Below are positions 435 to 13,547 of a stretch of DNA of 64,000 nt, in pieces. The position numbers and the translations under genes are program-made. Source of the DNA: Pseudomonadota bacterium (GTDB lineage: Bacteria > Pseudomonadota > Gammaproteobacteria > Steroidobacterales > Woeseiaceae); the NCBI GenBank assembly GCA_022563255.1, contig JADFNS010000006.1, forward strand, positions 1-64,000, written 5' to 3'. The notes under the pieces were generated by a model that was given only the letters and a program-made list of their open reading frames with translations, did no database searches and was not told where the DNA came from. How positions within the stretch are numbered: the stretch's first letter is position 1; the number at the start of each line of letters is the position of its first letter.

Positions 435-653
435 GTCGTTGCGTGCGCACCACGAGCAGTGTGCATGGTAATCACCCCTAAAAATAGCTGACGTCAAAAG
501 TAGAATTTTCTCGTAAACTGAACGCAGGAGATTCTCAAATGAAAACATCGAGATACAGTGATAGCCAGATTCTATCGATTCTGAAGCAAGCCGAATGTGG
601 CACGCCAGTACCGGCTCTTTGTCGGGAGCACGGTATGAGTAACGCCAGCTTCT

Positions 654-676
654 AGCGCGCAGCCTGCCCTTGGGGT
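654..676 (+). repeat. 23-bp insertion repeat, copy A (inside IS3 orfA)
   Basis: The core is AGCCTGCCCTTGGGGT, preceded by AGCGCGC. Excision of exactly 23 bases converts ttc-TAG back to ttc-tat-aag-tgg (F-Y-K-W), the conserved OrfA sequence. It differs at one base from the two copies in the IS6-family element near 12.9 and 13.4 kb. No target-site duplication is visible. The length of 23 shifts the frame and also creates an immediate stop. Confidence 0.85.
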
Positions 677-769
677 ATAAGTGGCGTGCAAAATTTGGCG
701 GGATGGATGTCTCACTGATGAAGCGAATGAAGGAACTGGTAGACGAAAACCGGCGCTTGAAGAAGATGT

Positions 770-786
770 ACCCAGAGGGCATAAAT
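770..786 (+). repeat. 17-bp insertion in IS3 orfA
   Basis: The insertion reads ACCCAGAGGGCATAAAT. Removing it restores the codons for KKMYADERLK, the expected OrfA zipper region. Its first bases (ACCC..AGGGCA) loosely resemble the reverse complement of the 23-bp repeat, which begins ACCCCAAGGGCA. That relation is tentative, and no second copy of the 17-mer was seen in this window. Confidence 0.6.
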
Positions 787-838
787 ATGCCGATGAGCGA
801 CTGAAAGCAGAAATTGTTCAGGAGGCGCTTGCAAAAAA

Positions 839-1658
839 GTGGTAAGGCCGTCTCACCGTAAAGAGATGGCCCAGAAGGCGGTTTCAGCACGCGGCCTCAG
901 TGTTCGCTTGGTGTGCCTGGCATTTGGCATCAGCGAGACCTGCTACCGTTACCGGCCGATACTGTCGGACGAAAATGCGGAGATTGCAGACTGGCTTATT
1001 CGCCTGACCGACAACCACAAGGATTGGGGCTTCGGTCTATGCCGTGATTACTTGCGTAATGTGAAAGGATTTGAGTGGAATCACAAGCGTATTTACCGCA
1101 TTTACTGCGAGCTGGAACTAAACCTGCGGATCAGATCCAGGAAACGAATACAGCGAGAAAAGCCGGTGCCACTGGCGGTACCTGATGAGCCCAATGACGT
1201 TTGGTCAATGGATTTTATGCATGACCAATTGAGCGATGGTCGTTCGTTTCGCCTGCTCAACGTGCTTGATGACTTTAACCGCAAGGGATTGGGCATTGAG
1301 GCAGACTTTTCATTGCCGGCGGCGCGTGTTATTCGTGCTCTGGATCAGATTATTGAATGGCGCGGAAAACCCAAGCGGCTGCGTTGCGATAACGGCCCGG
1401 AGTTCATCAGCCAGGATCTGGAGAAGTGGGCGGACAAGCACGACATCCGACTTGAGTTTATCCAGCCTGGCAAACCGCAGCAGAATGCCTACGTCGAGCG
1501 CTACAACCGCACGGTACAGCTGGCTAAGCCAATACCTGTTTGAGTCCATCAAAGAGGTGCAGGACTATGCCACCGGGTGGCTTTGGTTTTACAATCATGA
1601 ACGGCCCAACAAGGCCAATGGTGGCTTGCCACCGAAACATATGCTGAGTGCAGCATGA
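839..1658 (+). pseudogene. IS3 orfB integrase-type transposase, frameshifted
   Basis: The frame from 839 reads as the DDE (rve-type) catalytic subunit: the HTH-21-like segment [17 protein letters not shown], the first catalytic Asp in VWSMDFMHD, the second in RCDNGPEF, and the Glu in [11 protein letters not shown]. Near 1517 the frame shifts. The C-terminal part ([16 protein letters not shown].., ending HMLSAA) continues in another frame to the TGA at 1658. Comparison with the family suggests loss of a few bases between YNRTV and the following Arg-Tyr residues. All three catalytic residues survive, but no full-length protein can be made without frameshifting. Confidence 0.85.
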
Positions 1659-1970
1659 TCTCTGCTTTTGGTGTCAGTTAAAAAAGGGGGGATTACCCTA
1701 TGGCCACGAAAGCGGATAGTGGATTTCTAATTCGCCTCGGATTCCGGTTGGTCAGTGACTTCACGGTCATCGAGCTGTCGTTCGCCTTCGAACCCTCACG
1801 CATGGCCAATCGCATTTGCCGTCAGGATCATTACACCTGGAAGACAATATGCGAAACAGGCGAAGCCGTATCTGCAAGTGATGGAATTAGTATCAATGTC
1901 GAATTCGGCATCGAAACCATCGGCGCACTCACTTGCCGGGAAGGATCCTTAGAGATAGGAGGTATGATGA

Positions 1971-12770: not shown

Positions 12771-12867
12771 CAAATTAACGGCGGCTGAGCGACAATGGCG
12801 GAATGAGTACACCCAATAATCAGTGCAAACGCCACCGATTTCCGCCCGAGATCTTTCAACACGCGGT

Positions 12868-12890
12868 ACCCCAAGGGCAGGCTTCGCGCT
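12868..12890 (-). repeat. 23-bp insertion repeat, copy B (inside IS6 transposase)
   Basis: On the minus strand this has the same core, AGCCTGCCCTTGGGGT, preceded by AGCGCGA. Excision of exactly 23 bases rejoins HAV to (W)LYHRFSLS, the conserved IS6 N-terminal segment. It is identical to copy C and in inverted orientation to it. There is no visible target duplication. Confidence 0.88.
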
Positions 12891-13399
12891 CTGACTCTAT
12901 CATCGCTTCAGTCTGAGCAGCCGCGACATCGAGGATCTTATGGCCGAGCGAGGTATTGGGATCAGCTACGAGTCGATCCGGTTGTGGTGTATCAAATTCG
13001 GCCCGAAGTATGCGCAGCGACTTCGGCGCCGGCACCAGGGTTTCGGTGATACTTTCTTTATCGACGAAGTCTTCGTTAAGATTCAAGGGCAGCAAAGCGA
13101 TTCTTCAAACGCCTACTACGTGCGAGTGGCAGTGAACCCAGACGAGTCGTCACCGACAAGCTGAGAAGTTACGGTGTCGCTCACCGCGAACTCATACCGG
13201 ACACGATCCATGACACCTCCCAATATGCCAACAATCAAGCAGAGCTTTCACATCAACCGACCAGGGTCAGGGAGCGAGGTATGCGGCGGTTCAAATCCAC
13301 TCATCAGGCCCAACGGTTTCTGAGCACTCACACGGCTGTCTACAATCTATTCAATCTGGGGCGGCATTTGATATCGGCCAAACACTATCGATTTTTCCG

Positions 13400-13422
13400 A
13401 GCGCGAAGCCTGCCCTTGGGGT
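13400..13422 (+). repeat. 23-bp insertion repeat, copy C (inside IS6 transposase 3' end)
   Basis: The core AGCCTGCCCTTGGGGT is preceded by AGCGCGA. Removing 23 bases changes the frame from RARSLPLG to RFFRQRAFASWNCATAS-stop, the expected IS6-family C-terminus. It lies 509 bp from the inverted copy B. No target duplication can be recognised. Confidence 0.88.
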
Positions 13423-13547
13423 GCAGCGCGCCTTTGCGTCTTGGAATTGCGCAACGGCCTCATAACCGAATCAACATTGGGAGCCTCGTCGTGCTCGGAC
13501 ATTGATTTGTCAACACCGTGGCTTGAACAATAATTCGCCACAGACAA

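Follow-up and report, generated by a model that had tools for sequence, protein, structure and literature searches.

A probable 23-nt mobile micro-element with a one-sided target, inserted in transposase genes and REP-like palindromes of several bacterial phyla

The minimum length of DNA that can still be mobile is an old question. To our knowledge, the sole precedent in the size range considered here is cyanobacterial, and we know of no mechanism for it. The small dispersed repeats (SDRs) of Nostoc, reportedly described by Elhai et al. in 2008, are said to be dispersed sequences of 21–27 nt that are intercalated in other repeats or mini-transposons. They reportedly form predicted stem-loops and are believed to be mobile; spread through an RNA intermediate is said to have been proposed. 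Among larger systems, the Y1 HUH transposases of IS200/IS605 insert a defined unit beside a short one-sided sequence without duplicating the target, and the byps of Magnusiomyces mitochondria are small, hairpin-bearing mobile inserts in coding genes. Insertion of IS200/IS605 family members involves a tetranucleotide and hairpins (PMC6006769), and related Y1 enzymes are believed to mobilise REPs in trans (PMC3116915, PMC8266576); the SDRs of Nostoc are cited in PMC3116915. Here, we describe a 23-nt sequence from a member of the Woeseiaceae, where it is found, how it was gained, and how it might move.

The window, i.e. the whole stretch of DNA that was analysed, comprises the first 64,000 nt of contig JADFNS010000006.1 from an 84%-complete draft genome, and contains three copies of the 23-mer. 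Copies B (12868–12890, minus strand) and C (13400–13422, plus strand) lie in a decayed IS6-family transposase gene on the plus strand (12803–13465, ends approximate; DDE_Tnp_IS240 match, E 3e-18), with copy B in the N-terminal part, antisense to the gene, and copy C in the C-terminal part (RFFR-QRAFASW). A sequence-only reading of the same DNA had reported these two as identical 23-mers, and their coordinates and identity were reproduced. Both inserts that it counted are real, but it omitted a third, copy A (AGCGCGCAGCCTGCCCTTGGGGT; 654–676, plus strand), which differs from copies B and C at one base. Copy A lies in codon Y of NASF-Y-KW in the orfA of a decayed IS3-family element (539–1662, plus strand; orfA/orfB, rve domain), which also houses a 17-nt insert discussed below. 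The four bases following copy A are ATAA, compatible with the RYAA target described later. The IS3-family and IS6-family hosts are unrelated to each other, and these hosts bear other lesions too. Across the 2.45 Mb assembly, the 16-nt core of the 23-mer has three exact matches in the window and none elsewhere when 0–1 mismatch is allowed; with up to three mismatches, the core matches four times in the window versus 0.41 times expected.

The element is gained as a unit of exactly 23 nt that neither duplicates nor removes target bases, directly 5′ of R-Y-A-A on the top strand, and such gains are seen between filled and empty sites in IS6, IS3, and REP contexts. For the IS6 host, relatives were drawn from 107 genomes of the window's bacterial family and aligned; the sole difference from uninterrupted relatives at both sites is a 23-nt gap, with no base duplicated or missing. 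The relative L196, which is 93.5% identical to the window's IS6 element over 307 compared bases, reads TTTTTCCG directly followed by ACAACGCGCC at site C, where the window has TTTTTCCG, the 23 nt, and then GCAGCGCGCC. Copy C shows the exact gap against L196, L199, L219, L201, L202, and L022, and copy B, at the N-site, against L199, L219, L201, and L034; L199, L219, and L201 are empty at both sites. Site C is also filled in L034, L023, L024, and L037, and the N-site in L022 and L017, so that L034 is filled at site C and empty at the N-site, and L022 the reverse. For copy A, alignment with L256 (a match of 89% identity), L257, and L258 reveals a gap of exactly 23 nt. The empty sites in relatives rule out that the 23 bases are a natural part of the host genes, and the earlier claim of clean 23-base insertions without target duplication is borne out and extends to all three sites of the window. 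The two conditions under which that reading would have fallen, namely homologues that naturally have the 23 bases or a genome with no further occurrence, did not apply. In a FastTree tree of the IS6 sequences, the filled window copy adjoins the empty L196, and the filled L034 adjoins the empty L199. Because filled and empty states are interleaved among such close relatives, the sites were gained or precisely lost more than once, or were converted.

Cultured carriers comprise the isolate Xanthomonas sp. GPE 39 (L125, 3.5 Mb contig) and eight plasmid records of Xanthomonas citri. In the cases examined, the Xanthomonas copies lie inside an IS3 transposase at conserved W/H-D-N-A codons; in other X. 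citri pv. citri strains, plasmid pXAC64 has the same IS3 without the insert. Outside the insert, a filled X. citri sequence (L194) and an empty one (L343), both on finished plasmids, agree at 477 of 478 positions, and the comparison with a second empty sequence (L340) gives 472 of 473; the insert is also missing from A306 (L341) and from the annotated IS3 transposase of pv. vignicola (L342). By parsimony, the insertion in X. citri is the derived state. The lone substitution is a T/C change 2 bp from the junction, where the outgroup L342 has C; the element in the filled IS3 ends in C, not T. In one X. citri plasmid, the 30-mer is matched at three positions.

The sequence of the element, [A/T]GCGCGNAGCCTGCCCTYGGGGT, is nearly constant across phyla. 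Scanning one genome per species (85,462 species) yielded 94 contigs, true copies being told from chance matches by their [A/T]GC start and flank, and further copies were added from multicopy genomes. This resulted in 97 distinct copies, which fall into 65 site clusters after de-duplication; once three doubtful clusters had been set aside, 62 were kept. These correspond to roughly 62 different kinds of site, spread over several phyla (Pseudomonadota, Campylobacterota, Myxococcota, Fibrobacterota, Nitrospirota, and others). Carriers, mostly MAGs, include Woeseiaceae, SUP05/Thioglobus, Thiodiazotropha, Campylobacterales, Myxococcales, Fibrobacteria, Manganitrophaceae, Alphaproteobacteria, Planctomycetota, and Anaerolineales; no cyanobacteria are among the listed carriers of the 23-mer. 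At one mismatch or fewer, the genomes G107, G108, and G113 contain 11, 17, and 7 copies, respectively. Its distribution is patchy: when the window's class was sampled evenly, only one of the 368 other genomes contained an exact copy. No matches were found in 5,426 E. coli genomes, and phages and IMG/VR yielded no convincing copies, the viral matches being without the flank rule. The many loose matches in isolates (Streptomyces, Herbaspirillum, and others) are due to chance, without the [A/T]GC start and RYAA flank, and one match (L086) is ordinary coding sequence, read as argininosuccinate lyase. In a Helicobacteraceae MAG, two copies (L040 and L047) have a common 3′ flank of at least 60 bp and different 5′ flanks, of which one runs into an IstB-like gene and the other into an IS256-type gene.

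By hand count, transposase genes account for around half of the 62 clusters, and REP-like or other palindromes for around a third. Pfam scans of the flanks identified IS6, IS21 (IstB), IS256, IS3, IS1182-type (DUF772), IS110, RAYT/IS200, and IS66 transposases, and visual inspection of reading frames added further IS3, IS110, IS256, and IS21 hosts. In all, the element occupies at least eight IS families plus REP loops. Two non-transposase hosts emerged from the Pfam scans, namely queF, hit at its end, and a Gp49/HigB-like gene, hit at its start, and some copies are located upstream of transposase genes. Host frames often stay in phase over the junction once the 23 nt are set aside, while the IS6 N-site copies are antisense in three genomes. 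In a Campylobacterales MAG (L083), a copy breaks a Y1_Tnp (RAYT-like) gene. The suggestion in the sequence-only reading of a process that disrupts transposases found no support, as many sites are REP-like palindrome loops or gene ends; transposases are abundant and dispensable, so that no dedicated function is required to account for the transposase sites. Frameshifting 'small indels' within transposases can be element insertions.

To define the target, the element was set by its first 22 bases only, with the right flank left free. R-Y follows the insert in all 41 site clusters (p 2e-25), and RYAA in 23 of them (p 4e-31). The right flank has no signal from base 5 on, and the left flank is near-uninformative, with a weak G at −1. 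Given R-Y-A-A after the insert and so little on the left, the target is read from one side only. Viewed on the bottom strand, the element lies 3′ of TTRY, as TTRY^ACCCCRAGGGCAGGCTNCGCGCW (TTRY^ACCCC). One REP loop of G107, GATTCCGG joined to ACAAGCCGGAATGAC, is present in empty and filled versions within the same genome. The joined flanks pair across the junction (2.6 pairs versus 1.16 expected at control positions, p 0.01), a modest excess that is partly REP-driven. Within the element, mini-hairpins are predicted in both halves of the bottom strand (CCC-CRA-GGG and GC-TNC-GC), and are weak, at about −4.4 kcal/mol. Variation of the element is confined to predicted loop positions (GCGNAGC, CCCTYGGGG); because the copies are almost invariant, compensated stem pairs were not observed. 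A GC-skew proxy for strand preference, i.e. for a lagging-strand template, was not significant (p 0.098).

A second, shorter insert is present in the IS3 that houses copy A, 93 bp downstream of it. This 17-nt insert (ACCCAGAGGGCATAAAT; 770–786, plus strand) corresponds to a 17-nt gap against L256, with borders that are ambiguous by up to 2 bases (772–788 according to the aligner). It has a head, ACCC-NNN-GGGCA, in common with the bottom strand of the 23-mer. As a pattern (TTRYACCCNNNGGGCA), this head has 79 matches versus 2 for a reversed control in 24 genomes, nearly all of which were picked as carriers of the 23-mer, and about half of the head-pattern copies collected are not the 23-mer. The 17-nt type, searched as RYACCCNNNGGGCATAAA, has 49 matches versus 0 for the reversed control in the 107 Woeseiaceae genomes; 19 of the 49 are in a single genome (G058), and many are in REP palindromes. 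RY was included in this search pattern, and the 49 matches are therefore no test of a target rule for the 17-nt type. The common head suggests that the 23-mer and the 17-nt type are two families of one kind of micro-element, and we infer that they have a moving enzyme in common. Longer and further dispersed forms were also observed. The Fibrobacteria MAG G107 contains a longer dispersed hairpin repeat beginning TTATACCCAAAGGGCATAAGTTTCATTGAAG (L316, L308–L318), which starts with the micro-element head. More dispersed forms, beginning TTGCACCCCRAGGGCAC and TTGCACCCWAAGGGCAYAC, occur in G113 (L321–L331) and G059 (L334–L339), some of them in REP loops; these are probably further tails of the same kind.

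We consider it very likely that the 23-mer is a non-autonomous mobile micro-element. The same had been proposed from the sequence alone, and is strongly supported by the exact gain without target duplication, the unrelated hosts, and the near-isogenic X. citri pair. As for how it would move, we judge a Y1 HUH step to be the likeliest mechanism, a tentative choice made by analogy, in which our doubts outweigh our confidence. Both halves of the element would fold into the predicted mini-hairpins, and an enzyme supplied in trans would act on single-stranded DNA, cutting and joining it at TTRY in the manner of IS200/IS605-type and RAYT-type Y1 HUH transposases. Such cutting and joining would account for the one-sided target, the lack of duplication, and the modest preference for hairpin loops. 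Of the 20 carrier genomes searched, 16 have Y1_Tnp, but its presence in 66 of the 107 family genomes means that it does not discriminate; the window's own genome, 84% complete, yielded none, and no linked gene pattern (RAYT/Y1) was seen beside the element. Only one base (A) separates the junction from the predicted head hairpin, which leaves no room for a canonical IS608-style guide tetranucleotide 5′ of the hairpin foot. More broadly, the two families may belong to a superfamily of 17–23 nt mobile DNAs with the head TTRY^ACCC-NNN-GGGCA and varied tails, moved in trans, crossing phyla on IS elements and plasmids, and still mobile in cultured bacteria; we regard this as an almost evenly balanced possibility, with doubt slightly the heavier. 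If true, no smaller mobile DNA would be well documented outside cyanobacteria.

A sequence that stays fixed over phyla would also fit an RNA template, with a small RNA transcribed from the element entering DNA by reverse transcription or splicing, and its length, predicted structure, and nesting in repeats are like those of SDRs. We nevertheless hold RNA-intermediate spread to be unlikely: reverse transcriptase (RVT_1) is rarer than Y1_Tnp and not associated with the element, being present in just 16 of the 107 family genomes and 2 of 8 carriers, a count limited by draft genomes, and no conserved promoter-like flank was seen. The reuse of sites raises another explanation, namely that a few old insertions were carried by their host IS and spread among copies by homologous recombination, and that the element now moves little or not at all. 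The same IS3 codon is reused (the W/H-D-N-A site, at about 14 or more loci), as are the same two IS6 sites, and the three 30-mer matches in one X. citri plasmid point in the same direction. Against this stand at least eight unrelated IS families and REPs with empty copies in the same genome, the X. citri pair that differs by one base and the insert over about 480 bp, and the interleaving of filled and empty states among close relatives, which together make this account distinctly unlikely.

The remaining explanations concern the transposase genes and the genomes themselves. A dedicated anti-transposase defence that inserts sequence to kill transposons could be read from the fact that about half of the sites are transposase genes, but the element is equally seen in REP loops, at the end of queF, and upstream of transposase genes, and target choice obeys RYAA, with transposases merely being abundant dispensable DNA; we regard such a defence as very improbable. 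Several host frames being in phase over the junction would also be expected of a translational bypass or splicing element (such as byps or T4 gene 60) that is skipped in translation or cut out of the mRNA and so leaves the host transposases working. Since the IS6 N-site copies in three genomes are antisense, removal in translation cannot be a general explanation, and the non-coding REP loops and the other lesions of the window hosts further make it extremely improbable. Lastly, the 84%-complete draft status of the window's genome and the predominance of MAGs among carriers could hint at a sequencing, assembly, or binning artefact of metagenome-assembled genomes. An assembly artefact is refuted by isolate genomes: finished X. 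citri plasmids of cultured strains and the contig of the isolate Xanthomonas sp. GPE 39 carry the element, and the same sites were found again in independent studies, so that an artefact is next to inconceivable.

A non-autonomous mobile micro-element thus being the preferred reading, the 23-mer is among the smallest mobile elements seen. A text search of papers for its 15-nt core, in both orientations, gave no match. Its mechanism is open to direct test, since its target rule is clear, empty sites can be found in a genome that also has filled ones, and finished plasmids from culturable Xanthomonas carry both alleles. Like the REP/REPIN and RAYT/TnpA-REP systems (PMC3116915, PMC3733652, PMC8266576), it is short, palindromic, dispersed, and putatively moved in trans; unlike these, it is largely intragenic, follows no rule of inverted pairs, has a near-identical sequence in several phyla, and inserts into REPs. 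REPs proper are excluded by the missing GTAG or CGTC tag, as the consensus has neither, and only a rare N=T variant contains GTAG, in a predicted loop. MITEs are also small and non-autonomous, but no empty/filled pair of the 23-mer has terminal inverted repeats or a target duplication, and it is several-fold shorter. Unlike byps, it occurs antisense and in non-coding REPs as well, and signs of bypass are absent. With IS200/IS605 members (IS608, ISDra2) it shares a conserved tetranucleotide on one side only, the lack of a target duplication, and hairpins near the ends; it differs in being geneless, in not being flanked by tnpA, and in having no space for a guide tetranucleotide. The closest known kind appears to be the SDRs of Nostoc, and the earlier likening to cyanobacterial small dispersed repeats was apt. 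Like SDRs, which are 21–27 nt long, the element is 23 nt, has dispersed copies within a genome, and is intercalated in other repeats (IS, REP loops) without target duplication; unlike those cyanobacterial repeats, it occurs in several other phyla as one near-constant sequence, with a defined one-sided RYAA target and a near-isogenic pair of filled and empty sites.
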